38,191 nucleotides of DNA, taken from positions 1 through 38,191 of IMG/VR virus record IMGVR_UViG_3300029286_000123; one strand, written 5' to 3'. The notes under the pieces were generated by a model. The model made no database searches. It saw only the letters and a list, made by a program, of their open reading frames with translations, and was not told the DNA's origin. Positions 7,912-34,404 of the stretch are shown in pieces. The first letter of the stretch is position 1; every line of letters starts with the position of its first letter. Source of the stretch: a virus. A program made the translations under genes and the position numbers.

Positions 7912-9246
7912 ATGGCTACAACCAATTACACCACCCTTCTGGGCCTAGCCCTTCCCACTACAGGGGATCTATCGGGCACTTGGGGTACAGAAGTTAACAC
8001 CGCGATTACATCGTTGCTTGACACTGCCGTAGCTGGCACGACGACTCTCAGTGCGGATACAGACGTAACATTGTCTACCACCAATGGTGCGGCAAACCAG
8101 GCTCGCAGTGCAGTTATTCTGTGGACTGCTACTGGATCAACAACGCGGAACATCACCGCGCCAGCCCAAAGCAAGGCATACGTTGTTATTAATGCAACGG
8201 GCGGAAGCCAGTCAATTGTCATTCGAGGCGCCGGTCCCACTACGGGTGTGACAATCCCGGCCGGTACTAAAGCTCTTGTAGCTTGGAATGGTTCTGACTT
8301 TGTAACGGTCTCTTCTACGTTTTTTGCTTCCCCCTTGGCTGTAACGGGTAACTCTACCGCCGGCGCTGAAATTCGTTTGCCGGAAGACACCGACAATGGC
8401 AGCAACTACGTTGCGTTGAAAGCGGCAGACACACTCGCGGGAAATGTCACATTTACCCTTCCAAATGCAGATGGCACAAACGGACAGGTGCTTCAAACAA
8501 ACGGCAGTGGCGTTCTGAGTTTTGTATCGGGATCCTCACTTGCAACTCCATTGGCTGTTGTAGGGAATGCCACCGCTGGCGCAGAACTCCGCTTGCCTGA
8601 AGATACTGATAACGGGTCCAACTATGTGGCACTGAAGGCGCCAAATACATTAGCAAGCGATCTGACTTTCACCCTACCGTCGGCGGATGGGACTAATGGT
8701 CAGGTTCTGCAAACCAATGGCTCTGGTGCGCTGAGTTTTGTATCCGGTGCATCTTTGGCAACCCCCCTTGCTGTTATTGGAAATAGCAGTGCTGGTGCAG
8801 AACTGCGTTTGCCAGAAGATACCGACAACGGCAGTAACTATGTTGCGCTAAAAGCCCCTGATAGCCTTGCTGCTGACTACACATGTACGCTTCCAGACGA
8901 GACTTGCACTCTTGGGTTTAGGAATATCCCGCAGAACTCTCAATCTGCTGCATACACGCTTGTTCTAGCGGATTCCGGTAAGCATATCCTGCACCCATCT
9001 GCTGATACGACCGCACGCACGTTTACTATTCCTGCTAACAGTAGCGTGGCTTTCCCTATTGGGACTGCTATTACGTTTATCAATCAAAACGGCGCTGGTG
9101 TTGTAACTATTGCAATTACCACCGACACAATGCGATTGTCACCTGCTGGTACTACTGGTAGCCGAACTCTTGCGGCTAACGGTTCGGCAACTTGCATTAA
9201 AGTTACTAGCACTGAATGGATTATCTCAGGGAGTGGTTTGACATGA
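7912..9246 (+). CDS. Tail fibre protein with three 72-residue repeats
   Basis: The 444-residue protein starts with TTNYTTLLGLALPTTGDLSG-TWG, the N-terminal type seen in several podovirus tail-fibre genes. It carries three copies of a 72-residue module (starting at bases 8335, 8551 and 8767, each 216 bases on) with AGAE-RLPEDTDNGSNYVALK, TFTLP-ADGTNGQVLQTNG and SFVSG. The third copy breaks off near base 8900, where CTLPDETCTLGF replaces the usual end. The rest, residues 340-444, is beta-rich. It overlaps the lectin gene as ATGA, so the fibre and its probable tip are made together. Confidence 0.7.
   Translation: MATTNYTTLLGLALPTTGDLSGTWGTEVNTAITSLLDTAVAGTTTLSADTDVTLSTTNGAANQARSAVILWTATGSTTRNITAPAQSKAYVVINATGGSQSIVIRGAGPTTGVTIPAGTKALVAWNGSDFVTVSSTFFASPLAVTGNSTAGAEIRLPEDTDNGSNYVALKAADTLAGNVTFTLPNADGTNGQVLQTNGSGVLSFVSGSSLATPLAVVGNATAGAELRLPEDTDNGSNYVALKAPNTLASDLTFTLPSADGTNGQVLQTNGSGALSFVSGASLATPLAVIGNSSAGAELRLPEDTDNGSNYVALKAPDSLAADYTCTLPDETCTLGFRNIPQNSQSAAYTLVLADSGKHILHPSADTTARTFTIPANSSVAFPIGTAITFINQNGAGVVTIAITTDTMRLSPAGTTGSRTLAANGSATCIKVTSTEWIISGSGLT
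8335..8910 (+). repeat. Three tandem 216-bp repeats inside the fibre gene
   Basis: Copies begin at 8335, 8551 and 8767. Shared features are GCTGGCGC/GCAGAA-type starts and repeated ADGTNGQVLQTNGSG in the first two. Copy 1 and 2 are close over their full length; copy 3 keeps the first two thirds and then diverges. The bases differ at many third positions, so the repeats are not recent exact duplications. Confidence 0.8.
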
Positions 9247-9887
9247 GCGGCGTATCTCAAGCTGTATTTATGAACCAGAGGTCGTTTGGCCCGCCACCGC
9301 CGGGTGCGATTGGTTCTGCGTATGAGGGCGGGTATTACGCAGGTCAGATTTCAACCGCTGGCAATGGGGTTGCAGATTTTTATTTAGTTGTTGCCCCAAA
9401 ATCTTCTGGCGAAAATTCATCTAAACAATGGAAAACCACAAATACGTCCACAGCGGGAACATCTTCGGTTATTGACGGCCCAACCAATAGCGCTAACATG
9501 AACAATGCAAGCCATCCAGCGGCGCAGTTCTGTAAAGGCTTGACCATTGGCGGCTTTACTGACTGGTACATGCCCGCAAAAAACGAACTTGAAGTGTGTT
9601 ATTACAACCTAAAACCCACTACAGCGGGCAATGACACCGGCGCAGGCGTTAACGCCAACGCTGTGCCCAGAAGGGATAGTAGTTACACTTCGGGAACACC
9701 TGCGCAAACTTCGGCGGCGGCGTTTGTAACTGGTGGTGCAGAAGAGTTTGCGGCTGGCAGTTACTGGTCTAGTACTGAGCCTTCTGCGACGGGCGCATGG
9801 AGACAGTTCTTCGGTGGCGGCAACCAGAACTACGACAATAAGGACTATTCGACCCGGGTTCGAGCAGTTCGGAGATTGCCCGTTTAA
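9243..9887 (+). CDS. DGR variable protein, C-type-lectin-like fibre tip
   Basis: The ATG at 9243 overlaps the fibre stop (ATGA); the earlier in-frame ATG at 9216 lies in the fibre gene and is rejected. The 214-residue product has a linker (residues 1-55), then a domain with GGFTDWYMPAKNELEVCYYN and a C-terminal SYWSSTEPSATGAWRQF and RVRAVRRLPV. The DWY-P-K-EL and YWSSTE...VRAVR signatures belong to DUF1566/C-type-lectin-like domains, the commonest DGR target fold. The last 45 residues are written by the retroelement (VR 9746-9876). The product would sit at the tail or fibre tip and contact the host receptor; that location is inferred from its coupling to the fibre gene. Confidence 0.85.
   Translation: MSGVSQAVFMNQRSFGPPPPGAIGSAYEGGYYAGQISTAGNGVADFYLVVAPKSSGENSSKQWKTTNTSTAGTSSVIDGPTNSANMNNASHPAAQFCKGLTIGGFTDWYMPAKNELEVCYYNLKPTTAGNDTGAGVNANAVPRRDSSYTSGTPAQTSAAAFVTGGAEEFAAGSYWSSTEPSATGAWRQFFGGGNQNYDNKDYSTRVRAVRRLPV
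9746..9876 (+). repeat. DGR variable region (VR)
   Basis: This 131-bp 3' end of the lectin gene aligns without gaps to the TR at 10398-10528 (constant offset of 652). In the first 127 positions there are 20 mismatches and every one is an adenine in TR: 13 became G, 4 T and 3... by my alignment G is most frequent, followed by T and C. The only mismatch not at an adenine is 9873 (A) against 10525 (C), at the 3' border. The unchanged stretch at 9854-9872 marks the end where homing would begin (IMH-like). Confidence 0.92.
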
Positions 9888-9908: not shown

Positions 9909-10268
9909 ATGGCACAGTACAAACACTTACCAATATACAAGACAACCTACCAGTTGCTTGAAATGGTAACGCGCAAAACTAAAGATTTTCCCCGTGATTT
10001 TAAATACTCACTAGGGGACAAGATTAGAAATGAGTGCATTGAATTGGTTGTGTTTATTTATAAAGCCAACACACTGCGCCAGCAAAGAAAAGAGCACTTA
10101 CAGCAAATACTTGAAAGAGTGCAGGTCATTGAATTAATGCTTCGGCTTGCCAAAGACTTGCGTTTGCTTAATGTTACCGTTTTTTCCGAAATCGTCTTGT
10201 TGACTGACTCGCTTGCGCGTCAGGCACAAGGATGGATTACACATACACCAGACTTGAGGGCGGAATAA
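9909..10268 (+). CDS. avd: DGR accessory variability determinant (Avd)
   Basis: This 119-residue protein is all alpha helix by composition and contains YKTTYQLLEMVTRKTKDFPR followed by DFKYSLGDKIRNECIELVVF, the signature of the bacterial accessory variability determinant/S23 four-helix bundle family. Avd forms a pentamer that binds the DGR RNA and the reverse transcriptase and is needed for cDNA synthesis. It lies between VR and TR, as in the Bordetella phage BPP-1 layout. The first ATG has no recognisable Shine-Dalgarno sequence upstream, only a pyrimidine-rich tract with two TTTAATTC copies at 9883-9898, so the translation start is the least certain point. High positive charge (many Arg and Lys) fits RNA binding. 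Confidence 0.9.
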   Translation: MAQYKHLPIYKTTYQLLEMVTRKTKDFPRDFKYSLGDKIRNECIELVVFIYKANTLRQQRKEHLQQILERVQVIELMLRLAKDLRLLNVTVFSEIVLLTDSLARQAQGWITHTPDLRAE

Positions 10269-10538
10269 CGATGATTACGGTGATCGTTAGCGACCCATCT
10301 ATCTCGGGCCATGCCCGTTGGGAAACCAACGAAAGGGCGCAAGCCAATCTCAGTGTGGAAAAATCTGCATTGCGTTGTGTGAGTGCATGGCCTTTGCGTT
10401 TGCGGCTGACAATTACTGGTCTAGTACTGAGAATTCTGCAACGAACGCATGGAAACAGAACTTCAATAACGGCAACCAGAACAACAACAATAAGAACAAT
10501 TCAAACCGGGTTCGAGCAGTTCGGCGATGGAGCCAAGT
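10269..10538 (+). ncRNA. DGR template RNA region (leader, TR and RT leader)
   Basis: No protein gene is convincing between avd and the reverse transcriptase. The stretch should be transcribed as the DGR RNA. Its 5' part carries CGTTGG (10316-10321), GAAA (10322-10325) and CCAACG (10326-10331): a perfect 6-bp stem with a GNRA tetraloop. CGGGC at 10305-10309 and GCCCG at 10313-10317 form a competing stem around CAT. The TR itself runs 10398-10528. Its 3' end merges with the Shine-Dalgarno sequence (GGAG at 10529-10532) of the RT gene. Extent of the RNA is inferred from the layout of known DGRs. Confidence 0.7.
10398..10528 (+). repeat. DGR template repeat (TR)
   Basis: The TR pairs with VR (9746-9876) and is very rich in adenine, with 46 adenines in the 127-bp core by direct count; 20 of them are changed in VR. 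In the frame homologous to VR it reads ADNYWSSTENSATNAWKQN, then NGNQNNNNKNNSNRVRAVRR. The many AAY codons are typical, since changing the two As lets an Asn codon become many other residues without making a stop. TR differs from VR at 10525 (C against A), the sort of difference that sets TR apart from VR near the homing initiation site. Confidence 0.92.
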
Positions 10539-11657
10539 ATGCAGTGTGATCTGTCAATTTCGGAAGTTTTTCAGGCGTATTACGACTGCCGAAAGGCAAA
10601 GCGCAATACATGGAATGCAATTGAGTTTGAAAGTCAACTTGAGCGCAACCTGATGGACTTGTACTACGAGCTGGTGGCTGGCAATTACCAACCGGGGCGA
10701 TCCATCATGTTTGTCGTCACCAGACCTAAGGCGCGTGAAGTTTGGGCTGCAAATTTTAAGGACAGGGTTGTACACCACATTTTGTACAACCGCTACTCGG
10801 GCCACTTTTACCGGCGATTTATTCATGACAGCTACGCCTGCATCCCTGAAAAGGGCACACTCCGCGCAGCCAATCGTGTGCAACATTTCATTCGGTCGGC
10901 CACTCAAAATCACACTCGTCCGGCGTGGTTCTTAAAGGCTGACGTAGCAAATTTTTTTGTGTCTATTGACAAGTCAATTTTGGACGCCATGCTGGCGCGG
11001 CACATCACCGACCCGTGGTGGATGGCCTTGACACGGACAATCTTGCACAAAGACCCAAAAGAAAATGTTTACATCAAGAGCGATGCGTCGTTACTTTCTA
11101 AAGTACCCGCTCACAAAAGTTTGCTCAACGCCACAGCTGGTTTTGGTCTGCCGATTGGCAATCTGTCCAGTCAGTTCTTTGCCAACGTCTATCTGGATGC
11201 GCTAGATCAGTACGCCAAGAACACGCTAAAGCTGCGGCATTACGCCCGTTATGTCGATGACATCGTGGTGATCGGCGGAAGCGGAACCGATTTGAACGAG
11301 GCTTATGAAAAAATGTCGGTTTTTGCCGAGACACATCTTGCCGTCAAGTTTCACCCTAACAAAAAAGAAATTAATCGGGTTGAGGTGGGAATAAACTTTG
11401 TAGGCTATATTATTAAACCTTGGTGTAAATACATTCGCCGATCCACGATTGCCAATATGTACAAGCGCACTGCACTGCATTCTGAATTTGAGCCTCTGCG
11501 TGCAACGGTCAACAGTTATTTTGGTATGTTACGGCACGCTAACGCTTTTAAAGAACGCAAGCGTGCAGCAACACACCTTGGTAAATCCGGCTGCTGGTTT
11601 GATGGCCAGCTTACAAAACTTGTCAGATTAGGAGCATCACAATGCACATCGTCGTAA
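10539..11657 (+). CDS. DGR reverse transcriptase
   Basis: Start at ATG 10539 is chosen since GGAG lies six bases upstream; the earlier in-frame ATG at 10527 sits inside the TR end. The 372-residue protein has the DGR-type fingers/palm: catalytic Asp135 in LKADVANFF, GLPIGNLSSQ at 203-212 (motif 4, with the NLSSQ form specific to the DGR/group II-like branch), and YVDD at 238-241 with both catalytic Asp residues. It lacks RNase H, maturase and endonuclease domains, as DGR enzymes do. It copies the TR RNA while misincorporating at adenines, together with Avd, and the cDNA replaces VR. Its last 16 bases overlap the next gene. Confidence 0.93.
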   Translation: MQCDLSISEVFQAYYDCRKAKRNTWNAIEFESQLERNLMDLYYELVAGNYQPGRSIMFVVTRPKAREVWAANFKDRVVHHILYNRYSGHFYRRFIHDSYACIPEKGTLRAANRVQHFIRSATQNHTRPAWFLKADVANFFVSIDKSILDAMLARHITDPWWMALTRTILHKDPKENVYIKSDASLLSKVPAHKSLLNATAGFGLPIGNLSSQFFANVYLDALDQYAKNTLKLRHYARYVDDIVVIGGSGTDLNEAYEKMSVFAETHLAVKFHPNKKEINRVEVGINFVGYIIKPWCKYIRRSTIANMYKRTALHSEFEPLRATVNSYFGMLRHANAFKERKRAATHLGKSGCWFDGQLTKLVRLGASQCTSS

Positions 11658-12076
11658 CCGAAGTTGACCACAACACCCGCATCCCTTGCACTGTCGAGCC
11701 ACAGCGCACAGGGCCATCCATGCCAGCCGTCAAAGGCTTGCGCATCATCTGGCAAGACAAGTCCACATGGCCTGTCCCAACAGATTCCACAGGCACATAC
11801 CTGCGTGCGCCCAAGTACTACGGCACCTGTGATGACGACGCCGATACAAACATTCCCGGCGTGTTGGAAGTCCTGACCGAGACCGAGTGGAACGAGCGCC
11901 GTGTTGCAGAGCACGAAGCTACACGCCCGTACCCATCGTGGATCGGCTACTTGGACACCATGAGCTGGGGCGCTCCAGTACCCCGTCCTATTGATGCCAT
12001 CATGAACGGTGGCAACGTGCGTTACCAGTGGGACGAGGCCACAGTCAACTGGGTGCCAATGGAACCACAGGCATGA
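11642..12076 (+). CDS. Unknown protein downstream of the DGR
   Basis: GGAG at 11631-11634 is seven bases upstream of the ATG, and the gene overlaps the RT gene by 16 bases. The 144-residue product is acidic and Trp-rich. It has PAVKGLRIIWQDKSTWPVP, a DDDADTN stretch, WNERRVAEHEATRPYP and an ending YQWDEATVNWVPMEPQA. The last pattern resembles C-terminal tails of small proteins coded after tail-fibre genes, which can be fibre assembly factors; I do not recognise a defined family. Position between the DGR and the sulfotransferase is the chief reason for interest. Confidence 0.45.
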   Translation: MHIVVTEVDHNTRIPCTVEPQRTGPSMPAVKGLRIIWQDKSTWPVPTDSTGTYLRAPKYYGTCDDDADTNIPGVLEVLTETEWNERRVAEHEATRPYPSWIGYLDTMSWGAPVPRPIDAIMNGGNVRYQWDEATVNWVPMEPQA

Positions 12077-12891
12077 AAGAGTTCTTCTTCATCTCGGGAC
12101 TGCCACGGTCAGGCTCAACCCTGCTGTCGGCCATCTTGCGCCAGAACCCTGAGTTCTACGCAGACATCTCCTCGCCCGTGCAAGGCTTGGTGGCATCGAC
12201 CATCAACGTCATCACGGGCAGTGAGAGCAACCACCTGATTGATGAAGATCGCCGCAAGAGCATCCTGCGGGCCATGTTCAACGCCTACTACGACGCTGTT
12301 GAGCCGCCCATCGTGTTCGACACCAGCCGGGGCTGGACATCCAAGACATCTCTCCTGAAGACCCTGTACCCACAGACCAAGATCATCTGCTGCGTGCGGG
12401 ACTTGCCGTGGATACTGGACAGCTTTGAGCGGATCGCGGCCAAGAACACTTTGTGGAACGCCAGCCTGACGGATGACGAATCTAGCCAAACAGTCACCAC
12501 CCGGTGCGATGCGCTGATGGATGTGAAAAAGCAAGGTCAGGTGGTCAAGCCCTACTACTTCTTGGAAGAGGGTCTGCTCTTAAACCCCGACATGATCATG
12601 CTGGTGGAGTACGAGATGCTGTGCAAGCAGCCCGAGAGCGTGATGCGGGAGTTGTATGGCTTCATTGGCAAACCGTATTTCGACCACGATTACATGAACG
12701 TCGAGTACGATAACGAGGTGTACGACAAGGCGCTGAACATGAAGAGCTTGCACACAGTCCGCAAGCAAGTGTCGTGGCAAGAGCGCCCCACCATCCTGCC
12801 CAAGTCGGTGTGGGAGAAGTACTCAGGCAAGGAGTTCTGGCGCAAACCCGCCGAAGTGGAAGGGTTTAAGGTTCGCTGGGAACAAGCATGA
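12073..12891 (+). CDS. PAPS-dependent sulfotransferase
   Basis: The start at 12073 overlaps the previous stop as ATGA. The 272-residue protein begins MKEFFFISGLPRSGSTLLSA: Gly9-Leu-Pro-Arg-Ser-Gly-Ser-Thr16 is the 5'-phosphosulfate-binding loop. VRDLPWILDSFER, starting at Val108, is the 3'-phosphate-binding region. Later Tyr/Trp-rich segments end with FWRKPAEVEGFKVRWEQA. These features place it in the sulfotransferase family that moves sulfate from PAPS to an acceptor hydroxyl or amine. The acceptor is unknown; candidates are the host surface glycan, or the phage fibre. One line of the gene (12121-12180) is 37 of 60 G+C against 23 of 60 in the next gene (12961-13020), so the two may have different origins. 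Confidence 0.88.
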   Translation: MKEFFFISGLPRSGSTLLSAILRQNPEFYADISSPVQGLVASTINVITGSESNHLIDEDRRKSILRAMFNAYYDAVEPPIVFDTSRGWTSKTSLLKTLYPQTKIICCVRDLPWILDSFERIAAKNTLWNASLTDDESSQTVTTRCDALMDVKKQGQVVKPYYFLEEGLLLNPDMIMLVEYEMLCKQPESVMRELYGFIGKPYFDHDYMNVEYDNEVYDKALNMKSLHTVRKQVSWQERPTILPKSVWEKYSGKEFWRKPAEVEGFKVRWEQA

Positions 12892-13274
12892 GAGTGCTTG
12901 TCATGGGCCTACCGGGTTCCGGTAAGACCACACTCGCTGATTCTTTACCGTTGCCGTTTGTAAGATTGAATGCAGACCAAATAAGGCAAGAAGCAAACGA
13001 TTGGGATTTCACCATTGAAGGCAGGCTGAGGCAGGCCAGACGCATGAGAGAGTTAGCTGGTGACAAAGATGTGATTGCTGACTTTGTGTGCCCTCTGCCA
13101 GAGATGCGTGAGATTTTTGATGCTGACTATGTTGTATGGATGGACACTGTTGTTGAATCAAAGCATCTTGATACGAACAGACTTTTTGTACCGCCGGAGC
13201 ATTTTGATTGCAAGGTAACAAGTTGGGATGCAAAATGGATTCAACAAATTACAACTGAGATTCTTGTTAGATAA
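12888..13274 (+). CDS. APS-kinase-like P-loop kinase
   Basis: The ATG at 12888 overlaps the sulfotransferase stop (ATGA). The 128-residue product has Walker A GLPGSGKTT (residues 8-16), then VRLNADQIRQE (a D-x-x-R motif as in adenylylsulfate kinases), RLRQARRMRELA, and ADFVCPLPEMRE, which resembles the ISPFRADR segment of APS kinase. It is short (APS kinases are about 170-200 residues), missing part of the C-terminal lid. It may phosphorylate APS to supply PAPS for the upstream sulfotransferase, which its coupling suggests. A polynucleotide-kinase-like or other P-loop kinase is the main alternative, since specificity cannot be read. Confidence 0.65.
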   Translation: MRVLVMGLPGSGKTTLADSLPLPFVRLNADQIRQEANDWDFTIEGRLRQARRMRELAGDKDVIADFVCPLPEMREIFDADYVVWMDTVVESKHLDTNRLFVPPEHFDCKVTSWDAKWIQQITTEILVR

Positions 13275-14238: not shown

Positions 14239-14988
14239 CTACGTTGTTTGTAATTTCTTCCGAGCCCAATACGCCTTCATTGCATCAGATTGTCGTTTGC
14301 GCTGTTCTGGCAACCGCAATGTAGCAGCACGCTTGGCAGCTATTTCTGGATCTGTGTTTAATACTTTGTGGTACTGGCGCAATGGGTTGTTTGGATCCAT
14401 TAGCTTCAAGCGCCTGACTTCTTTATCTTCTTCAGAATGTATGGGTTTGCCAACTTTTTTGGCAGACATCGCTGCGCGGTACTCCGGGTCAGCCCACCTA
14501 GCTTTGATCTTCTCTCGCACTTCTGGGCGCTTGGCAGGGTTGGCGTCACCAAGGAAAAGCGCCTGTACATCAGGTGACTTCATGCGTTTGGAAATTTTGG
14601 CCCTAGCCTCCGGGCTTCGCGCGGGGTGCCTTGGATCAAGCATTGCTTGTCGCAGAATTTCTCGGTGTTTAGGAGTTGGCGAATGAGCACCGTCTCCACC
14701 AGAGGTAAGGTTGGTCAGCGGCCCAGTGCCGGTCTGTATGCGGCCAATTTCCGCAATAAGTTTGCACTCAAGTGCGGTGCCTTCTTCGATGGAGGTAACA
14801 GGCCTCAGTTCGATGATAACTTTTTCAGCGCCAACTTCGGCCAACTTTTGTTTACACAGCCAATTGCGTCCGCCGGCATTCAGCGGGTTGGTGCGATGGC
14901 GGGTTCTTGTAAAACCAACATAGAAAGGAGTTCCGTCAGTGGTCTTCCAGATGTAGACATACATGGTGTGTTCTTGGTTAATTGCCAT
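14239..14988 (-). CDS. GIY-YIG homing endonuclease with NUMOD3-like repeats
   Basis: The 249-residue protein runs against the surrounding genes. Residues 9-80 have MYVYIWKTTDGTPFYVGFTR (a GIY-YIG variant), LNAGGRNWLCKQKL, and later GTALECKLIAEIGR with the metal-binding Glu. The C-terminal half has repeated helical elements such as SPEARAKISKRM, RPEVREKIKARW and NTDPEIAAKRAATLR, as in NUMOD3-type DNA-binding repeats of homing nucleases. An internal ATG (Met9) is an alternative start, since no Shine-Dalgarno sequence is clear. It sits between the spanin genes and the next structural gene, a typical place for a mobile insertion, and its first codon lies eight bases from the 5' flank of the plus-strand gene at 15003. 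Confidence 0.85.
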   Translation of the reverse strand: MAINQEHTMYVYIWKTTDGTPFYVGFTRTRHRTNPLNAGGRNWLCKQKLAEVGAEKVIIELRPVTSIEEGTALECKLIAEIGRIQTGTGPLTNLTSGGDGAHSPTPKHREILRQAMLDPRHPARSPEARAKISKRMKSPDVQALFLGDANPAKRPEVREKIKARWADPEYRAAMSAKKVGKPIHSEEDKEVRRLKLMDPNNPLRQYHKVLNTDPEIAAKRAATLRLPEQRKRQSDAMKAYWARKKLQTT

Positions 14989-23700: not shown

Positions 23701-26700
23701 ATGGATCGGAAAGAAAATCCGTTTGACCAGTTTGACCAAGAGCCAGCCAATCAATTTGACCAGTTTGAAGTAACACAAAGCGCCAACCCGTTTGATCAGT
23801 TTGATCAAATGGATAAAGTTGCCGCACCAGTTGCGCGTGGTCCAATCAAGGGGCCAGCGCAGCGTACAGTGGTGCCCCCAGCGGCAGCCCCTGTGGCGCC
23901 AGTAACAGCAGAAGATTACTTGGAGCCAGCGACTTCTGCGCCGCCACCTTTAAGTGAGGCTGTGCGATCGCAATTAGATCGCAAGTATGACGCCCTGTCT
24001 CCACAGGACCGGGATGCAATCATTCGTGGTCGCACCAAAGATGGCCGCCAGACCTTGGAAGGAATGTACTTTGCCTACAGGGACAAGCAGTTTGCTGCGC
24101 GTGATGCTGATACGGCAGCATTTGCCAAGCAGCTCGGTCCAATGGCATATCGCCTTTCTGACCTGACAGACCCCCGGAAAGAGTCGCGTGCTCGTATGGC
24201 GCGTGAGCAGGGCGCATCGGACAAGACAGCAGAGAATATTGCAGCGCAAGCAGCTATCGAGGGTCTGCCAGCAGAAGAGGTGGTGCCGCAGGCCAAAGAA
24301 TCAAAGTTTGATTTTGACTTGGCTGCTCGCTACAAAGATCTTAATCCCGTGGTGCGCGGGGCTGTAAAGGGTTACTACGGCTACAAGCAAAGTGTGCTTG
24401 GCCTTAACCAAGCGCTTGGTGACTTGGTTGGTGCAACAGACTTTGCGGATACGCAAAGGGCTGGCGCAGAAACTGCCGGCGGTCGTGTTGAATCTATTGG
24501 TGAGCGTCCTGATTACCTGTCGCGTAACTTTGAAGGCGCGGTGAGCAGTGTTGTTCAAAATATTCCCGGCATTCTTGGCGGAATTGCAACGGGCGGTGCG
24601 CTAGTCCCATTGTCTGTGCTGGGCGTACAGTCTTTTGGCCAGAACTACACAGAGGGCGTGAGTCGTGGGTTGACCCGCGACTTGGCGGCGCAACGCGCAG
24701 GCGTGTTTGCAGCAGCAGAAATCTTGGGCGAGCGCTTTGGCTTGGCCGGTCTAACAAACGGCATCCGCAAAGCCTTTGGCAAGAAAAGCTTTGAGGAGGC
24801 TTCCGATGCGGTCTCGCGGTACATCGTTAGCCAGATTCCCGGTGAGCAACTGACTACTGCTACGCAGTTCCTTGCAGACAAGTACCCGAGTTTTGCCTTG
24901 AATCCACAGGCAGGTATCAAAGAGTATCTGCAGCAAGCTGGCGATACGTTGACTCAAACCATCATGCAGGGCGGTCTGATGATGGGTGGCGTTAAGGGCG
25001 CTCAGTTCTTGGCTACCGGGCGGTTTGGCGCAGAGCCCGGAGAACAGCCACCGATTGCCGGCCGTCCTCCAGAAGAGCCGCCGATGGCACCAACCGAAGA
25101 GCCCCCTATTGCTCCGTCTGGCGCTCCGGGTGGTGAACGCATAGAACCAACGGTTACCGCAGAGCCCACCATCACTCCGGAGCGTGTAGAGCCTGCGTTT
25201 GGTGCAGAACCCACTATAGAGCCTGCTGTAGAACCGGAAGAGCCCGGCGTTCCCGGCATGGTCACCACGGAGATGCTGGCACCCGAAGCGGTGGAGCAGC
25301 CAGAAGGCCAGGTTGCCCCAGCAGAACCGCCGGTTCCGTCGCCTATCAAGCCAGCTGTTGCGCCTCCACAAGAACCATCCAATGAAACCACTGTAGACGG
25401 AATGTTGCCGGTCAATGTGCCGCTCAAGGATCTGACGCTCTCCAAGGATGTGCCGCAGTTCAAGATGGGCGCAGATGCCAAGGGCGTTGTAGAGCCGCTA
25501 GGCGGAAAGTTTGAGCGCACTGGCGTCGCCCCCATTCAAGTCTGGCGCCGGCTTGATGGCAGCCTAGAGGTTATCTCCGGGCGTCACCGTTTGGATTTGG
25601 CTCGCCGTAGTGGCGAGAAAACCATCCCTGCACAGATTCACGACGAGTCGCAGGGCTTTACTCCCACGATGGCGGCCATTCTAGATGCGGAGCTGAACAT
25701 CCGCGATGGCCAAGGAAAGGTGAAGGACTATGTCAATTACTTCAAAGCGGCCGGCATCACCCCGGAAGATGCAGAGTCAAGAGGACTTCTGGCAAGGTCA
25801 ACGGGCAAGCGGGCTTACACAATCGCAACTACGGGCAGCGATGAACTCGTTGCCGCAGTTCGTAACGACCAAATCGGTGATGAAGCGGCGTACTACGTCG
25901 CGCTAAACGCGCCGAATGACCCGCGTCTGCAAAGCGTGGGTCTGCAAGCCATTCAGGATGGCAAGTCGGCCAATCTAGCAGTCAACACCATGCTGGCCAT
26001 GAAGGCGCTTGGCATGGAGCAAGACACCACGACCGACATGTTTGGCTTTGACGACAGCGCCATGAAAGAAGCGGCTGCTATGGCACAGGTCGCTAACAAG
26101 AAGCAGCGTGAGATCCAGACCCGGCTTGCTGCTATTACTGGCGCAGCCAAGAACCCGGCTGTTGCCAAAGCAGAAGGCATCGACATCCGCGACCCAGAGG
26201 CGGTCAATCGCCGTATTGGTGAGCTGCGTCAGATGAAGAATGCTTGGGACAACTGGGCTACCAGTCCTGAATTGATTGGCGAAATTCGCCAAGCACGTGG
26301 CGTTGAAGCACCTGGTCTGACTCTGCGTGGCGAGACGGAAGAAGAAATCCGTGCCCGCGAGGAAGCGGCGGCAGCAGAGGAGCAGCGTCTCCGTAGCGAG
26401 GCGGAGGCAGCCAGACGTGCAGAGCAGGCGGAGATAGAGCGCAAGCGTGCAGAAGAAACTACCGACCTATTCCAGCTTGGCCAGACTGCAGAGCAGCAGA
26501 TGTCTGGCATGGGTGATTTGTTTGCGGAACCGGCAGCCCCAGCAAAAGCGCCGAGGGAAGCGCCAGAATTTCCGTTTGAAGAAGGCGCTCGTGTTCGTTT
26601 TTTGCCAACCGACACATCGCCTTTGGGTGGCGGTGTTGCAGAAGGCCAAATCATTGGTTTGGACAAAACCAGTGGAAAAAACTACCGAGTTCGTTTGCGC

Positions 26701-29700
26701 TTAGATAAAGATGCCCCGCAGGGTAGCGGCAAGATGGAGCGCGTTGTTTACAGCAATGCCGGTACTTTTGAGGCGGCAGAAGCGCCCGCAGCAGCCCCAG
26801 CAGCAAAACCTGTTATTGAAAGAACTACCCAGCCCGATGGCGGTGTTCGCACAGTTGTAACCAGAGATGGAAAAGTCATTAAAGATGTGACTCGCTGGAA
26901 ATACGAAGCGATTGTTGCTGACGAACCGCAAGGGTTTGTTGTCGAACAAGATAACATCACTGGTGAAAAAGAAGCATTTTGGGCCGTAGATGGCAGGGTT
27001 ATTGGCTCCGGCATTGGTGCCACAAAGCTTTTTGAACAAGGCATGTCTAACGAAGACGCCATCCGTCGATTGATGCAGGATGTAGAAAGTCTGACGCTTA
27101 AAGGCAAGGCAGAAGCGCCCGCAGCAGCACCAGAAGCAGCCGACATGGAGCAACTCAACCGCCTGATGGGCGAGTTGCAAAAGGCGCGCAGTGAACAAGA
27201 GTTCACCGACGCTGCTGTTGCGCTGGGTGAGTCGGTGCCCAAGCAACCGTTCTTGGGAGTGCAGCTGAAGGAGCTGTCGAGCGGTGTGCGGTTCAATATC
27301 GCTCGCTCTTCGGATGGCAACCGTATTGTCTTTAATGCTGGCTACGATGACCCCGATGGTTTTGAGATAGCCCGCAAGCCCAATCAAGCGTGGAAGCTTA
27401 CAAAGACACCGCGCTTTGCCAAGCAGATCATTGAGCGCAACCAAGCAGCGCCGGTGGTTGAGAAGCCAGAAGCTAAGCCCGCTCTGCAGAAGCCGGCTGC
27501 CGAGAAAGCAGAACCACGCGCAGATTTTGACAAGCGCGCGAAGAACGCGATTGATAGCTTTGTAGACAGCATTGTTGAGCAGTTTGACATGACGCCGGAA
27601 ACGGCCCTGGCTGCATTCAACTGGCTGCGCAGCGAGAAGCTGGCTGAAGTGGATCCGGTTCTGGGCAAGGTCAATCTTAAGGATGGTCGCTTCTGGGATG
27701 GCGAAATCCTACGTCGAGCGGCGCTGGAGACGGAGGCCAGGGGCCGTGAGCCAGGGGCAACGGACGAGGACGTTAAGGCAGTCGGCGAAGTTTTTGAAGG
27801 CGCACGCGCCGGTCAAGAAGAAGAGCTTCATCGTCTGTTCGACAAGCCTAAAGAGGTGGTGCGCCTCACCCAGAAGGGTGACTTCATCACTCCTGCAGAA
27901 GCAAAGAAGCGTATTGCTGAGTGGAAAAAGAATGCAGAAGACCAAGGCAAGACCAACGCTAATTCAGACAAGATCGTTCTGTCATTGTTTGATTTGACTG
28001 GCGCATGGAGTGAGCCGTGGCTTGAGGCTGGGTATCAGGTCTATCGCTTTGACATCCAAGATCAATGGACAATGACCGATGAGCGCACAGGCGAAGAACT
28101 AAACCTTGGCGACATCAACAACTTCAGCGTCGAATACTTTGAAGATCTGTTTGGTAACTTTGAGGGCAACGATGTCCACGCCATCCTAGCTGCCTGCCCT
28201 TGTACCGACTTTGCATCTAGTGGTGCGCGTCACTTCAAGGCTAAAGATGCAAGTGGTCAAACGATGGACTCGGTGCAGTTGGTGCAGCAAACGCTGGCCA
28301 CCATTGAGTACTTCCGTCCTGCTATTTGGGCTATTGAGAACCCTGTTGGTCGTATTGAAAAGCTGACTGGCTTGCCACCGTGGAGCCTGTCGTTTGACCC
28401 GTACATGTTTGGTGACCCGTACACCAAGAAGACATTGTTGTGGGGTCGGTTCAACGCCAATCTGCCGACCGCTCCTGTTGACCCTGTAGAGGGCAGCAAG
28501 ATGCACCGCATGTATGGCGGCAAGTCTCTGGCCACCAAGAACGCCCGGAGCGTCACGCCGGAAGGTTTTGCCTATGCGTTCTTCCAAGCCAACAACGCTA
28601 TTGACCATCCTGTCATGGCCCTGGCCAACATCTACGACCGACTAAACCCCAAGCTGTTTGAGCGTGCAATGAAGCTTGGCGTGTCTGAGCAAGACATCCG
28701 TTACGCTATAGATGACGCGTACTACAGCGAGTTGGACGATGCGGCAGCAGAAGCTGAGCTCGTTCGACTGGCCAATGAAGCGCAAGCGGCTAAGGCTCCT
28801 AAGCCGAAGGCGGAGAAGCCTGCTGAAAAACCAATTGCCGCCAAACCAGCGGAAAAACTTCCGTACACCAAAGAGCAGCGCGAAGATGCCGAGATCCATG
28901 CCAAAGAAGTGGGCGGGGAGATTGTATGGCAGCGTGGTGAATACGCACTGATTCGCGGCTACTCCGATCGTACCGGAGACCCGATGTATGCGCCCACCAT
29001 TGGTAGCTCACGAGCCCGTGTTGATATCTCTGCTTTTATTGGCAAGCAGATCCCGGATGATGTGAAGAAGGAAATGCTGGAGACCAAGGAGCGCCTTGAA
29101 AAAGAAGCTGCCGAGGCTCATGCAGCCAATCCGTTCATCAAGTTCAAGGATGGCATTGCTCTGTCGGAAGACATCCCGGCAGATTTGGCGGGGGTTATCC
29201 GTGAGTGGAAAAACCTTCTCAATATAAATGTTCCGGTCTATGTATCTACCATTGAAGATGCCAAGCGGAATATTGATAACTTTACTGGGCCGCACCGTCG
29301 CATTGGATCTGGAACGCTTGATGAGAATGAAGCGGGGTCGATGCGCCGGATGACAGATGATAGCTATTACATTCTGTTTAAGAAATCTACCAGCTACACA
29401 AAAATGTTGGAGACGTTGGCCCACGAAATTGGCCACCTTCACATGACTGTTCACTATAAACGAGCAAGTCAAGAAGACAAAAAAGCCCTAGAAGCCGCGC
29501 ACATTAAATGGATGGAGTCGCAGAAAGACAAAAGCGCAAAAGAATGGGTAGATGCTATGCGCGCTCGATCTACGGGCCGCATGGTTAAAGAAGTCCCTGG
29601 CATGAAAGCCAGTGAAATGGACTTTTATTGGCGCAAGTTTGGCGAGTGGTACGCCGATCAGACTGCACGGTGGGCGATGTCCGCAGAAGCTCCGGTATCG

Positions 29701-32700
29701 GTGGTGGAGAAGTTCTTCAAACGGCTGGGCAATCAGCTGCGCCGTTTCTACCAAAGCCTGCGTGGCCAGAAGTATCTGCCGGATGAGACGTTCCGTGAGT
29801 TTATTGAACGTGCCATCAGCCCAACCTACATGGGACCGACTGACACGACTCTGCCACCCTCAGATGAGGCAGAACGGCAACTGCGCGATGCAGAACGCGA
29901 GAGTGCAACGTGGTCGCCTAAGCGTATCAAGATGCTGGTGCGTGAGTTTGTATATCGCCAAGAAGGTAGAGAGAACGACACCAAGGCATACGCTGCCTTT
30001 ATCAATCCGACTGAGTTTGTGCGTGCAACCACCGAGCCTGGTGAGTTCCGCAAAGAATTGCTCCGCGCAGAAGAAGGCTTGGACATGGATCGTCTGCGTG
30101 AGGAAGACCAGACGCCGTTCTTGAAGGTGGATTACGTGCCCGGCGACCGGGTGATGTGGTCTATCGTCAATCATGAGGGCCGTCACCGCATGGCTGCTTT
30201 GGCAGCTGCTGGCGTGGAGCGCGTGCCCGTATTGATTCGCATGACTGGCGAAGCGCAAGCATGGCCCGCTATTGAGTCGCAGTGGTTGAGCGGCCAAAGA
30301 TTTGGCACTGGGATTAGGGAGAAAGGTGATGCAGTCGAGATCACCGACTTGACGCCAATCTCGTGGGCCAACCGCGATGATCTGCAACAGAAGTTTGGTG
30401 GCGAGGGTATAGCGTTCAGTATCGAACAGCCAGAAGCAAAGCCCACGAAGCGGATGAGCGATGAAGACATTCGCGACGAACAGATTCGTGAGTACTCTGC
30501 ACTGCGTCAACGCTTAGCTGCTGTTCCCCGGAGAATCGCGACTGGCAAAAGCGCGCTCCCTGATGGCCCAGCTAAAGGCATGACCGAGCTTGAGCGCGTC
30601 TACCTGAAGTCTCTTGTGGATAGGGCGCAGTATCTTAAGGCTGCCATCAAGATCAGTGCTCCGCGTCTTGATAGCCCTGAGCAGTTCCTGGCTCGCGCTC
30701 TCAAGGAGTACGACGCCGGCAACATCAGCAAGGAAGTGTTAGATGTCATTCAGGCTGCGTATAAACAACAGCCCAGACTTCTCAATGGACTAAAGCTCAG
30801 CATCAAGCAAGCCCCTGAAGGGGAGGGGCGCTTTGCCGGTGCGTTCCTAAACATGTCGCGCATCGTTCGCCTCTACAAGGGGTCGAGCGGTGTGGACGAT
30901 CCAAAGACCATCCGCCATGAGCTGACGCACTCTTTGGAGCAGATGATGACGCCCGAGCAGCGCGGCGTGATTATCGACAAGTGGCAAGACGATCTGGCCA
31001 GGGCAATCCGCAAGCACAAGGATGCCGCCCATCAGAAGTACTTTGAGGCGCTGCTGAAGTTCTTGGATAAGCCCACGATGGAAAACTACAAAGCTGCCAT
31101 CGCGGCGCTGCCATCGTATGACATGTACCAGTTCATCACTCCCTCTGAGTACTGGGCAGTCAACGCAGAGAACCTTATGGCCAGCCAGCTTGGCGGTCCT
31201 TGGCAACGCTTCAAGGCAGCCATGAAGCGGATGTTTGAGGCGCTGAAGGATGTCTTTGGATTCGATAACAAGTACGTTGTCCAGCGTGTCTTCAAAGACA
31301 TCATGACTGGCAGCAAGGAACGCGTGACCACCGAGATGCTGGCTGACCGGGCGGGCATTGCTGTCTATCCTGCGCAGAACATCGAAGAAGACAAAACGCT
31401 GATTGAAAAGTACAAGCGTCCCAAGACGCCGATGCTGGACAAGAAGCCGCTGGCTACCTTTTTGCTTGACCAGTTTAAGAACGGCAAGGATCTGTTTAAA
31501 GACTTTGTAGAGAACCCCAAAGAGGCTGCTGCTGACGCTGGCAACTCATTAATTGATGGGGCGCTCAGGGCGCGCATGGCAACTGTCTGGTACGGGGCCG
31601 GTTTGGAGTCACGCGACTTTGCCAAGTATGGTGGTCAGCTGCGCACTAGCGAAGACTTGGCCACAGCATCTGTTGCTTTGGATAACGCCATCCGCAGCGG
31701 CAATATTGGCGTGGAAGTCATCTTCCGTGGTGGCCTAAAGTTTGATAAGGACAAGCTGCAACTCGTAGCCGTAGAGACCAAGAAAGGTATGCGCGGTGTC
31801 TACGATGCAGAGCGCCGCCTGAAGGACAAGCTGGGCAATCAGCTTGGCACTGACATTATCCAAGGCTATCTGGAAGCCAAACGTTCTATAAGCATCATGA
31901 ACGAGTTTTACGATCGCCAGGCTGCATACGAGGGCGCCAAGGAAAACCTCAAGATGCTGCGCGAGCAGGGCGCTTCGGAGAAAAAGATTAAGGAAGCAGT
32001 GGCGCTCATGGAGAGCGCAGAGCGCAGCCTTGAATCGGTTAAGAAAGCCGTCTCATCGGTGACCATGACCGAAGAGGAAATGTACGATTTTGCCGCTAGG
32101 GACAAGGTTCATCCAGAGCTCCGCGAAATTATGGACAACTGGACGGCTGTAAATCAGAACCTGTTGCGTATCTGGCGAGATGTTGGCCTGTTGTCTCCGG
32201 AGCGTTACGAGGCGCTTGCCTCTATCCCGGACTACGTACCGTGGTATCGCATCATGCAGGACGAAGAGGATCCGCATACGCCTCTTATGTCTACCACCCG
32301 TGGGCTCACCAACATTGGCCGGGAGAAGCTGTTCAAGCGGACCAAGCCGACCGATGTGCTGGACTTCAAGGGCAAGGAAGGCAAGAAGGTTCTGGACGAG
32401 AGCGGCAACTTGATTGGCATGTCTTTCAAAGTGCCGCCGTCCACTGTGCTACGCGTTGAGGTAGATGGCGAAAAGATCAAAGCCCAGGACTTGTCTGTGA
32501 CCGATGACGGCCGGGTAATGGTCAAGGCACCGATTGATGACGCCTCTCTGGTGGTCTTCAAGGTGACCCGCCCGATTCAAAACATTGTTGATAACATGAC
32601 TCAGAACGTCATGCGCATGACGATGAACGCCATCCGTCAGTATGCGGCTGGACGGATTGTTTCTGAGTACGCAACCCGTGACCCCCAGGGAAGAGTTATG

Positions 32701-34404
32701 ACGTTCCCGAAGGAAGATCTTGCCAAAGGTCGATTCTCCTTTGTGATCAACGGTCAACGCAAGGTCGTAGAAATTTCAGACCCGCTACCGCTGGGCGCTA
32801 TTTATGGCATGGATAGCTTGAACTTGAAGATGTTTGCACTGCCTGCTGCATTCGCCAACTTCTTCCGTCGCACCATTACTCTGTCGTTTGTGTTCCAGCT
32901 GAAGCAGGTATTCAAGGATGCGCCCACGGCGGCTGCCGTTACCGGCGTTCGCAATCCAGCAGCTCTTATCCTGGGGACTTACAAAGGACTCATTACCGCG
33001 TTGCTGCAACCTGTCGGCAAGAAGGTGGGCATAGACATCGAGCCAGCGGTGGATATCTTGAAGGCTGCCGGCATCGGCGGCTTCCAGAATCCGTCACGTA
33101 CTCCAGAGGCAGAAGTAAAGCGTCGGCTGGGCATCATGAACCGCAACGTCTTCGACTTTGTGATCAAGGCGCTAGACCACATTGGTGACTCGGCTGACAT
33201 GGCGCAACGGATTGCAGTTTACAAGCGCGTCATGGCAGAGACTGGCAATGAAACGCAGGCGCTCTATCAGGCTGCCAATGTCATTAACTTCCTACACCAC
33301 GGCTCCTCCGGCACAGCTCAGGCTTTGGTTAAGACCGTTCCCTTTATGGGCGCATATGCCAACGCAATGGATGTATTGGTTAACTCATTGATTGGCGGCG
33401 GCCTTAAGGGCATGAGTCGCAGGAAGGCCATTGCCCGTTTGAGTGTGACCACGGGGATGCTGATTGGCATCACGCTGCTTTACACCATGTTGGTCAGTGG
33501 TGATGACGACTACGAAGAGCTGGACGATCAGACTAAGCTGCGCAACTTCATCATCCCTGGCACCGACATCATGCTGCCGATGAACACGTCGTATGCGTTC
33601 TTCTGGAAGGCAATCACGGAGATGCTTTACAACGAGGCAATCAAGAAGGCTACGCCGAATGAGATTGACCAAACACGCCTGAAGAAAGCGTTGAGTACTG
33701 CCGCCAGAGACATGCTGCTTGGTCCGGAGCCGGTGCCGCAGATAATCAAAGGTCCGGCTGAGATTGCCATCGGCTACAACTTCTTCACCGGACGGGACAT
33801 CATTCCTGAAGGTCTGAAGAACGTTGAAACGTTCCAGCAGTACACCGCTGCCACTTCAGAACTTGGCAAGTGGTTTAGCAGCTACACCGAAGTCCCCGGT
33901 ACTGATGGCAAGCGCATCCTAAGCCCCATCGAGGCAGATCATCTAATCCGTTCCACGTTTGGTACGGCCGGGGCTCTTGGTCAATGGGTCACCAATCGCA
34001 TTGCCGTAGAGGCTGGCACAAGACCGGAGCTCACGGAAAAGGAAGCGCCTATCACTGGCGCGTTCCTGCGACCGGAAGTAGATCGTGGCAGAGAAGATCT
34101 GTTCTACGACCTACGCAATCGCGTGAACCAAAAGTACAACACGCTGCGTGAGCTGGAGCGTGATGATGAGAAGAAAGCCGAGGCTTACGACGAAAAGTAT
34201 GAAGACCTTCTTGATATGCACAAAGACGTAAACAAGATAGCCGCAGACCTATCCGACATCAACGCAGAAATTCGCGAGCTCAGCACATCTAAAGATATCA
34301 AGATGACCCCCGCCGAACGTCGCGCCGAAATCCGCGCTCTTCAGCAGGAAAAGAAAGAAGTCCTTGATGACATATACGAGCTTCGCAAGGAGGCGGGGCT
34401 CTAG
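23701..34404 (+). CDS. Giant polyvalent virion protein (3567 residues)
   Basis: One intact 3567-residue frame. Order: N-terminal NPFDQFDQ repeats (6-37); a hydrophobic/Gly-rich region (200-445); a Pro/Glu-rich linker (445-565); a ParB/DdrB-like domain (570-690) with SGRHRLDLARR (Gly627-Arg-His-Arg630); an Ala/Glu-rich linker; a C5-methyltransferase-like domain (1421-1620) with CPCTDFASSG (Cys1501 would be the catalytic Cys) and IENP at 1545-1548; a metallopeptidase-like HEIGH at 1908-1912; NHEGRHRMAAL near 2157-2167, a second ParB-type element; HELTH at 2406-2410; and a C-terminal LPD38-like region (about 2810-3400) with a membrane segment near 3250. Large polyvalent proteins like this are packed in virions and injected, and may protect phage DNA from restriction or act on host targets. 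Each domain's activity is unverified. Confidence 0.75.
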   Translation: MDRKENPFDQFDQEPANQFDQFEVTQSANPFDQFDQMDKVAAPVARGPIKGPAQRTVVPPAAAPVAPVTAEDYLEPATSAPPPLSEAVRSQLDRKYDALSPQDRDAIIRGRTKDGRQTLEGMYFAYRDKQFAARDADTAAFAKQLGPMAYRLSDLTDPRKESRARMAREQGASDKTAENIAAQAAIEGLPAEEVVPQAKESKFDFDLAARYKDLNPVVRGAVKGYYGYKQSVLGLNQALGDLVGATDFADTQRAGAETAGGRVESIGERPDYLSRNFEGAVSSVVQNIPGILGGIATGGALVPLSVLGVQSFGQNYTEGVSRGLTRDLAAQRAGVFAAAEILGERFGLAGLTNGIRKAFGKKSFEEASDAVSRYIVSQIPGEQLTTATQFLADKYPSFALNPQAGIKEYLQQAGDTLTQTIMQGGLMMGGVKGAQFLATGRFGAEPGEQPPIAGRPPEEPPMAPTEEPPIAPSGAPGGERIEPTVTAEPTITPERVEPAFGAEPTIEPAVEPEEPGVPGMVTTEMLAPEAVEQPEGQVAPAEPPVPSPIKPAVAPPQEPSNETTVDGMLPVNVPLKDLTLSKDVPQFKMGADAKGVVEPLGGKFERTGVAPIQVWRRLDGSLEVISGRHRLDLARRSGEKTIPAQIHDESQGFTPTMAAILDAELNIRDGQGKVKDYVNYFKAAGITPEDAESRGLLARSTGKRAYTIATTGSDELVAAVRNDQIGDEAAYYVALNAPNDPRLQSVGLQAIQDGKSANLAVNTMLAMKALGMEQDTTTDMFGFDDSAMKEAAAMAQVANKKQREIQTRLAAITGAAKNPAVAKAEGIDIRDPEAVNRRIGELRQMKNAWDNWATSPELIGEIRQARGVEAPGLTLRGETEEEIRAREEAAAAEEQRLRSEAEAARRAEQAEIERKRAEETTDLFQLGQTAEQQMSGMGDLFAEPAAPAKAPREAPEFPFEEGARVRFLPTDTSPLGGGVAEGQIIGLDKTSGKNYRVRLRLDKDAPQGSGKMERVVYSNAGTFEAAEAPAAAPAAKPVIERTTQPDGGVRTVVTRDGKVIKDVTRWKYEAIVADEPQGFVVEQDNITGEKEAFWAVDGRVIGSGIGATKLFEQGMSNEDAIRRLMQDVESLTLKGKAEAPAAAPEAADMEQLNRLMGELQKARSEQEFTDAAVALGESVPKQPFLGVQLKELSSGVRFNIARSSDGNRIVFNAGYDDPDGFEIARKPNQAWKLTKTPRFAKQIIERNQAAPVVEKPEAKPALQKPAAEKAEPRADFDKRAKNAIDSFVDSIVEQFDMTPETALAAFNWLRSEKLAEVDPVLGKVNLKDGRFWDGEILRRAALETEARGREPGATDEDVKAVGEVFEGARAGQEEELHRLFDKPKEVVRLTQKGDFITPAEAKKRIAEWKKNAEDQGKTNANSDKIVLSLFDLTGAWSEPWLEAGYQVYRFDIQDQWTMTDERTGEELNLGDINNFSVEYFEDLFGNFEGNDVHAILAACPCTDFASSGARHFKAKDASGQTMDSVQLVQQTLATIEYFRPAIWAIENPVGRIEKLTGLPPWSLSFDPYMFGDPYTKKTLLWGRFNANLPTAPVDPVEGSKMHRMYGGKSLATKNARSVTPEGFAYAFFQANNAIDHPVMALANIYDRLNPKLFERAMKLGVSEQDIRYAIDDAYYSELDDAAAEAELVRLANEAQAAKAPKPKAEKPAEKPIAAKPAEKLPYTKEQREDAEIHAKEVGGEIVWQRGEYALIRGYSDRTGDPMYAPTIGSSRARVDISAFIGKQIPDDVKKEMLETKERLEKEAAEAHAANPFIKFKDGIALSEDIPADLAGVIREWKNLLNINVPVYVSTIEDAKRNIDNFTGPHRRIGSGTLDENEAGSMRRMTDDSYYILFKKSTSYTKMLETLAHEIGHLHMTVHYKRASQEDKKALEAAHIKWMESQKDKSAKEWVDAMRARSTGRMVKEVPGMKASEMDFYWRKFGEWYADQTARWAMSAEAPVSVVEKFFKRLGNQLRRFYQSLRGQKYLPDETFREFIERAISPTYMGPTDTTLPPSDEAERQLRDAERESATWSPKRIKMLVREFVYRQEGRENDTKAYAAFINPTEFVRATTEPGEFRKELLRAEEGLDMDRLREEDQTPFLKVDYVPGDRVMWSIVNHEGRHRMAALAAAGVERVPVLIRMTGEAQAWPAIESQWLSGQRFGTGIREKGDAVEITDLTPISWANRDDLQQKFGGEGIAFSIEQPEAKPTKRMSDEDIRDEQIREYSALRQRLAAVPRRIATGKSALPDGPAKGMTELERVYLKSLVDRAQYLKAAIKISAPRLDSPEQFLARALKEYDAGNISKEVLDVIQAAYKQQPRLLNGLKLSIKQAPEGEGRFAGAFLNMSRIVRLYKGSSGVDDPKTIRHELTHSLEQMMTPEQRGVIIDKWQDDLARAIRKHKDAAHQKYFEALLKFLDKPTMENYKAAIAALPSYDMYQFITPSEYWAVNAENLMASQLGGPWQRFKAAMKRMFEALKDVFGFDNKYVVQRVFKDIMTGSKERVTTEMLADRAGIAVYPAQNIEEDKTLIEKYKRPKTPMLDKKPLATFLLDQFKNGKDLFKDFVENPKEAAADAGNSLIDGALRARMATVWYGAGLESRDFAKYGGQLRTSEDLATASVALDNAIRSGNIGVEVIFRGGLKFDKDKLQLVAVETKKGMRGVYDAERRLKDKLGNQLGTDIIQGYLEAKRSISIMNEFYDRQAAYEGAKENLKMLREQGASEKKIKEAVALMESAERSLESVKKAVSSVTMTEEEMYDFAARDKVHPELREIMDNWTAVNQNLLRIWRDVGLLSPERYEALASIPDYVPWYRIMQDEEDPHTPLMSTTRGLTNIGREKLFKRTKPTDVLDFKGKEGKKVLDESGNLIGMSFKVPPSTVLRVEVDGEKIKAQDLSVTDDGRVMVKAPIDDASLVVFKVTRPIQNIVDNMTQNVMRMTMNAIRQYAAGRIVSEYATRDPQGRVMTFPKEDLAKGRFSFVINGQRKVVEISDPLPLGAIYGMDSLNLKMFALPAAFANFFRRTITLSFVFQLKQVFKDAPTAAAVTGVRNPAALILGTYKGLITALLQPVGKKVGIDIEPAVDILKAAGIGGFQNPSRTPEAEVKRRLGIMNRNVFDFVIKALDHIGDSADMAQRIAVYKRVMAETGNETQALYQAANVINFLHHGSSGTAQALVKTVPFMGAYANAMDVLVNSLIGGGLKGMSRRKAIARLSVTTGMLIGITLLYTMLVSGDDDYEELDDQTKLRNFIIPGTDIMLPMNTSYAFFWKAITEMLYNEAIKKATPNEIDQTRLKKALSTAARDMLLGPEPVPQIIKGPAEIAIGYNFFTGRDIIPEGLKNVETFQQYTAATSELGKWFSSYTEVPGTDGKRILSPIEADHLIRSTFGTAGALGQWVTNRIAVEAGTRPELTEKEAPITGAFLRPEVDRGREDLFYDLRNRVNQKYNTLRELERDDEKKAEAYDEKYEDLLDMHKDVNKIAADLSDINAEIRELSTSKDIKMTPAERRAEIRALQQEKKEVLDDIYELRKEAGL

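Follow-up and report, generated by a model that had tools for sequence, protein, structure and literature searches.

Sulfotransferases have been reported from cyanophages and OM43 phages, where their function has been called unclear (PMC10580990). Those of S-SKS1, S-SRM01 and AG-345-O18 have the PF13469 domain in common with the sulfotransferase (ST) studied here and are 28-33% identical to it over 88-95% of the length. However, in the stretches read, sulfotransferases of the S-SKS1/S-SRM01 type adjoin no kinase and no profile match to P1 or Lcl_C, the partners of ST described below; that of S-SRM01 adjoins a glycosyltransferase and a nucleotide-sugar epimerase. The APS kinases (CysC, or the APSK domain of PAPS synthetase) share with the kinase encoded beside ST (KIN) the P-loop, the positions of the Asp, Arg, Phe and Arg motif residues and the overall fold, whereas the KIN family is shorter (122-150 aa), has a shortened lid and a Gln in place of a conserved Asn, and falls below the equivalog cut-off. 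In the animal PAPS synthetase an APS kinase is fused to an ATP sulfurylase. Many relatives of KIN also consist of a kinase followed by a nucleotidyltransferase with a HIGH motif, either within a single polypeptide or encoded by neighbouring genes (L101 and L102), but this second domain is NMN-adenylyltransferase-like, unlike that of the animal enzyme.

Two further systems bear on the neighbourhood of these genes. The diversity-generating retroelement (DGR) of the Bordetella phage BPP-1 type has in common with the one found here a reverse transcriptase (RT; 35.6% identical), the accessory protein Avd, adenine-specific change between TR and VR, and a target with a lectin-like fold; here, however, P1 and cargo enzymes follow, and the target is of the Lcl_C type and not Mtd. 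The Legionella adhesin Lcl carries in its C-terminal region the same domain (PF07603) as the fibre tip of our phage, and binds sulphated glycosaminoglycans through that region (PMC11162425). None of the literature searched brought a sulfotransferase together with a diversity-generating retroelement, in phage tail fibres or otherwise, and none described a fibre-linked sulfation cassette of the P1-ST-KIN kind.

Organisation of the locus

The window, meaning the whole stretch of DNA analysed, is the entire IMG/VR virus record IMGVR_UViG_3300029286_000123 (38,191 bases, positions 1 to 38,191). Its tail-fibre region reads, 5' to 3', a 444-aa fibre-like protein, an Lcl_C adhesin, Avd, TR, RT, P1, ST, KIN, an endolysin and a spanin (Table 1). 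An initial annotation had placed three genes with short overlaps directly after the RT, and the open reading frames are indeed found at those positions, RT and P1 overlapping by 16 nt and both P1/ST and ST/KIN by 4 nt (ATGA). Elsewhere in the window, a GIY-YIG/homing-endonuclease-like gene (14239-14988, minus strand; phrog_314, E 1.5e-8) lies on the opposite strand inside the late region, and the largest open reading frame (23701-34404) encodes 3567 aa.

Table 1. Positions of the features of the fibre and sulfation region within the window.
Feature	Position	Strand	Basis
Lcl_C (PF07603, DUF1566, C-type-lectin-like) adhesin / tail-fibre tip gene, DGR target	9216..9887	+	PF07603 44.6 bits
DGR VR	9746..9876	+	131-nt direct repeat of TR
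DGR accessory protein Avd	9909..10268	+	PF22296 48.5 bits, phrog_3206
DGR TR	10398..10528	+	repeat pair with VR
DGR reverse transcriptase (RT)	10527..11657	+	PF00078 56 bits, phrog_1423 E 1e-99
P1, fibre companion, slot marker for ST or other cargo	11642..12076	+	AF2 model pLDDT 94
PAPS-dependent-type sulfotransferase (ST), most likely	12073..12891	+	PF13469 67.1 bits (cut-off 27), PF00685 39.9 bits (cut-off 22), phrog_27463 E 5e-48
ST 5'-phosphosulfate-binding loop GLPRSGST	12097..12120	+	G9 L10 P11 R12 G14 T16 invariant in alignment
ST 3'-phosphate-binding motif R109-x7-S117	12397..12423	+	both residues invariant in alignment
KIN, APS-kinase-like P-loop kinase of the short type (128 aa)	12888..13274	+	AF2 pLDDT 92.2; Z 16.8 to 5cb6
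KIN Walker A loop GLPGSGKTT	12906..12932	+	KIN-family alignment
Block at 88.9% nucleotide identity with L004 (P1 RBS, P1, nearly all ST)	11630..12852	+	blastn

Conservation of the gene order

A scan of viral contigs with ST returned 159 relatives, of which the best 80 were kept; together with those of a kinase scan, the sequences collapse to 66 distinct ST proteins. The contigs are fragmentary, and the best 80 hits form a biased set in which related samples are repeated. Among the loci with enough room on the contig, KIN lies directly downstream of ST in 75 of 75 (61 by the script rule, and 14 where ORF-start artefacts had masked it), which upholds the pairing of sulfotransferase and kinase that had been proposed, and P1 lies directly upstream of ST in 76 of 77. 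When P1 was used as the anchor, ST came next in nearly all of 73 further loci. The closeness to a receptor-binding protein, also noted initially, is equally constant, with an Lcl_C homologue no more than 3.5 kb upstream of P1 in all 75 ST loci with room. Dozens of distinct viral contigs thus repeat the order fibre-P1-ST-KIN, which for this reason is not a matter of chance. What forms the unit is "Lcl_C fibre - P1 - ST - kinase", and sulfation is linked to the fibre, not to the RT.

The Lcl_C genes are often in tandem, in two or three copies, the last of which is separated from P1 by a median of 18 nt. As many as three Lcl_C adhesin genes in tandem precede P1 in several loci that have no DGR (L031, L033, L056, L069 and others), where fibre diversity is stored as multiple gene copies. 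The fibre gave no match by sequence to solved structures in the PDB. No tyrosine of the fibre was clearly specific to loci bearing ST, the difference at Y130 (77% versus 31%) being weak.

P1 itself has no Pfam match and only a weak one to phrog_7759; no relative was found in 50,697 records of cultured phages, and neither Foldseek against BFVD and PDB nor VIA structure comparison gave its predicted fold a convincing match, an absence that proves nothing. What follows P1 is not always ST. In L085, which has no DGR, a putative glycosyltransferase-like protein with only a sub-threshold Anp1 match stands between P1 and ST, and in relatives of the DGR the position after P1 holds other sugar or sulfate enzymes. 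P1 marks a cargo slot behind the fibre. Sulfation genes are what this slot most often carries in the present group, whereas the DGR, where there is one, is an optional insertion on the opposite side of P1.

Relationship to the retroelement

The DGR of the window is genuine. Of the 21 positions at which its TR and VR disagree, 20 are adenines in TR, so that substitution is adenine-specific; a DGR-type RT and Avd are both present (phrog_1423, phrog_3206, PF22296); and the RT is 52% identical to those of Pseudomonas phages Cruim01 and SC_8. Where a DGR is present, it is the Lcl_C adhesin that it diversifies.

The initial annotation had gone further and suggested a unit of DGR and sulfation, in which the RT system and the sulfation genes would form one functional system. 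Repeated co-occurrence of RT and ST does exist. DGR and an ST of the window family are found together in at least three divergent cassettes (the window, L015/L118 and L084/L119), and in the DGR locus L129 the slot after P1 is filled by another kind of ST. Most ST cassettes are nevertheless without RT or Avd. Among the loci anchored on ST, these genes were found only in copies from the window phage and in L015, the kinase scan adding L084. Of 17 whole records bearing ST, 16 have no RVT_1 and the one positive carries the window's own cassette, so that co-occurrence of RT and sulfation genes as a rule was not observed. Conversely, the majority of DGR relatives have no ST, and L004 shares P1 and ST with the window without having a DGR. 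On this distribution an obligate DGR linkage was rejected, and a true DGR-sulfation unit, which it largely refutes, is in our view very improbable.

The association of RT and P1 is closer. In the search anchored on RT, P1 follows all 20 of the RTs of at least 58% identity but just 2 of 60 more distant ones. The gene after P1 varies among these loci, being ST with KIN in the window, L118 and L119, and elsewhere a GT2 glycosyltransferase (L120), a different sulfotransferase of 584 aa (L129) or no related enzyme. The L129 protein (L129:6562-8316) has a sulfotransferase domain and a long C-terminal part that is TPR-like by eye, and appears to be an independent acquisition. In L116 (2386-2616) and L117 (3529-3759), one reading frame (MKELFRIKESRFKDTNKLF...) runs from the opening codons of ST straight into the C-terminal portion of KIN; this lineage of DGR phages has apparently lost ST and the greater part of the kinase by deletion, and their function is therefore dispensable. 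The DGR is an occasional, independent insertion between fibre and P1, and its occurrence with ST seems incidental, each of the two being attached to the same fibre/P1 slot.

The sulfotransferase

The reading of ST as a PAPS-type sulfotransferase is borne out, with PF13469 and PF00685 both matched above their cut-offs and the PAPS motifs invariant. All 11 aligned members of the family match PF13469, and the 5'-PSB loop and the 3'-PB Arg and Ser are conserved without exception across these divergent sequences, identities among which go down to 27-33%. ST is most likely a PAPS-dependent-type sulfotransferase, predicted to carry out sulfuryl transfer from PAPS. The top PDB matches of the family profile are the tyrosylprotein sulfotransferases TPST1/2 (E 2.7e-14), a resemblance that may serve as a lead towards a protein acceptor but is no test of one. 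Close relatives of ST were found only in uncultured viral contigs; the genome contigs searched held none of ST or P1 in bacterial genomes or prophages, and a cellular source of the cassette was rejected on these grounds.

The kinase and its fused nucleotidyltransferase

KIN matches AAA_33 (31.1 bits, cut-off 27) and phrog_10255 'kinase' (E 1e-26) but misses the cut-off of PF01583 (APS_kinase) with 16.8 against 21.1 bits, and is filed here as APS-kinase-like and not as a member. The relatives scanned pass that cut-off at 29.9-60.2 bits, among them, in the same slot, L035 (60.2), L078 (56.6) and L011 (42.2). The apsK equivalog cut-off of TIGR00455 (138.7 bits) was not reached by any of three relatives, the best at 54 bits (E 1.6e-14), and the window KIN had no match to this model listed at E <= 0.1. 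In the PDB, APS kinases are the best real matches of the family profile, since adenylate kinase 9 (two chains) and a cilia protein match near the P-loop only. The predicted structure agrees: in the VIA comparison rows 1-26 are all APS kinase domains, before gluconate kinase appears at Z 14.4, and the model superimposes on APS kinase 5cb6 with an rmsd of 1.8 over 128 residues, fold and P-loop both corresponding. Invariant in the family alignment are the P-loop, D30, R33, F41, R46, P69 and R74, which align with the LDGD..R, GF, DR and ISP..R motifs of APS kinases. By profile and by fold, then, the APS-kinase-like nature first ascribed to KIN is supported, and KIN is probably an enzyme of this kind, with PAPS synthesis as its predicted activity.

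Substrate specificity is a separate matter. Against APS as the predicted substrate stand the scores below cut-off, a sequence match to APS kinase that stops near residue 84, and a structural alignment in which about 40 APS kinase residues, probably those of the lid, are passed over. Caution over the substrate comes mainly from the pair of kinase and nucleotidyltransferase, which occurs also in phages without ST. Fusion of the kinase to a nucleotidyltransferase domain with HIGH/ISxTxxR motifs was seen in 40 of 58 testable loci (e.g. L011:6819-7604). An ATP sulfurylase identity of this domain is not supported, as the domain resembles NMN adenylyltransferase (PDB 1f9a, E 6e-9; NadM-type matches in NCBIfam); ATP sulfurylase PF01747 was found in 0 of 17 records bearing ST. 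Kinase and nucleotidyltransferase (phrog_10255) are also fused or adjacent in phages with no ST over the cut-off, including several of L086-L102 and Stenotrophomonas phages, which gives the KIN family some role beyond ST; in L101 (6001-6869) they are split into two genes. It is possible that kinase and nucleotidyltransferase together represent a new bifunctional enzyme.

These observations could also mean that the substrate of KIN is a small molecule other than APS, such as the riboside of a NadR-type kinase paired with NMN adenylyltransferase, and that KIN merely shares the cargo slot with an ST that uses PAPS from the host. The NMN-adenylyltransferase-like character of the second domain would fit, as would the presence of the kinase among DNA-metabolism genes in Stenotrophomonas phage DLP6, which has no ST, and the Gln of KIN in place of the Asn of the 'DR.EN' motif together with its shorter lid. 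We nevertheless consider it unlikely, given that APS kinases come out on top by profile as well as by structure, and that the members which consist of a kinase only and stand beside ST are the most APS-kinase-like (60 bits) and have the canonical 'NKDLGFS..DR' motif. In addition, on an ST tree with weakly supported forks, about 10 changes of the kinase type behind ST (short, APSK-like or fused) can be counted, all of them within the KIN family, a member of which is retained every time.

Mosaicism and selection

The tail regions are mosaic, and clustering of the backbone gave no clear count of independent phages; independence was judged by the contrast in identity between ST and the structural protein g709, and by the boundaries of the block shared with L004. 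Across relatives ST is mostly 86-90% identical, as against 27-73% for g709. L004, which has a fused kinase, shares the P1-ST block of Table 1, whereas identity to the window is 67.7% in the upstream fibre and nil over the kinase. GC3 is 0.68 in P1 and 0.80 in ST, compared with 0.41-0.53 in their neighbours on either side, DGR and fibre genes upstream and kinase and lysis genes downstream. From these patterns P1 and ST appear to move as a block. Median dN/dS is 0.047 for ST, 0.033 for KIN, 0.114 for P1 and 0.258 for the fibre. Both enzyme genes, ST and KIN, thus show strong purifying selection. The substrates of the two enzymes have probably stayed constant, in contrast to the variable fibre.

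Possible function of the cassette

We propose that P1, ST and KIN form a late-gene sulfation cassette of Lcl_C receptor-binding fibres in which KIN is the source of PAPS and some virion component is the target that ST sulfates, an interpretation to which we give an even chance. APS would come from the host or, in many relatives, might be prepared by the fused nucleotidyltransferase domain. KIN would phosphorylate APS to PAPS, from which ST would transfer sulfate to an acceptor, and the DGR would separately diversify the tip of the same fibre. The likeliest acceptor would be a virion component, perhaps the fibre itself or an attached glycan, that is modified as the particle is assembled, because the cassette lies between fibre and lysis genes and always after the fibre; naming the acceptor in this way is speculative. 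It is this position in the stretch from fibre to lysis genes that points to both late expression and a virion target. The modification of surface or fibre put forward initially is, in this sense, something that we too infer.

The nearest rival of a virion target is modification of the receptor glycan. ST and KIN might sulfate a polysaccharide of the host surface and so alter the receptor of the fibre, with the result that infected cells and debris would no longer bind progeny or competitors, as in serotype conversion by Gtr/Oac. Such an activity would suit the far greater conservation of ST and KIN than of the fibre, as if phages with differing tips had the same acceptor, and a relative of KIN in L101 lies near a NodU-type carbamoyltransferase. 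Exclusion genes, however, are usually early-acting or prophage-encoded, while these genes lie in the structural and lysis region, with fibre and endolysin as neighbours, a setting in which genes should be expressed late, and the bacterial genomes and prophages searched hold no close relative of ST or P1. The binding of sulphated glycosaminoglycans by Lcl, which has the domain of the fibre, can be cited for receptor modification (PMC11162425) but would be equally compatible with a virion target. Overall, we look on receptor modification as possible but rather improbable.

If the virion is the target, the cassette might have a wider meaning, which we offer tentatively. Phages may sulfate their own receptor-binding fibre, on tyrosines or sugars, by means of a horizontally mobile ST with a built-in PAPS-making enzyme, a form of enzymatic fibre tuning available with or without a DGR, and the fusion of kinase and nucleotidyltransferase may be a second, independently built PAPS synthetase.

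The locus illustrates how a gene can appear to be linked to a DGR merely because gene and DGR both attach to the same fibre. When phages carry sulfotransferases or 'cysC-like' genes, these are commonly assigned to auxiliary sulfur metabolism. A fixed site behind a receptor-binding adhesin in many phage contigs, together with strong purifying selection, suggests a role in host recognition, and the cassette offers a concrete and testable role for phage sulfotransferases.
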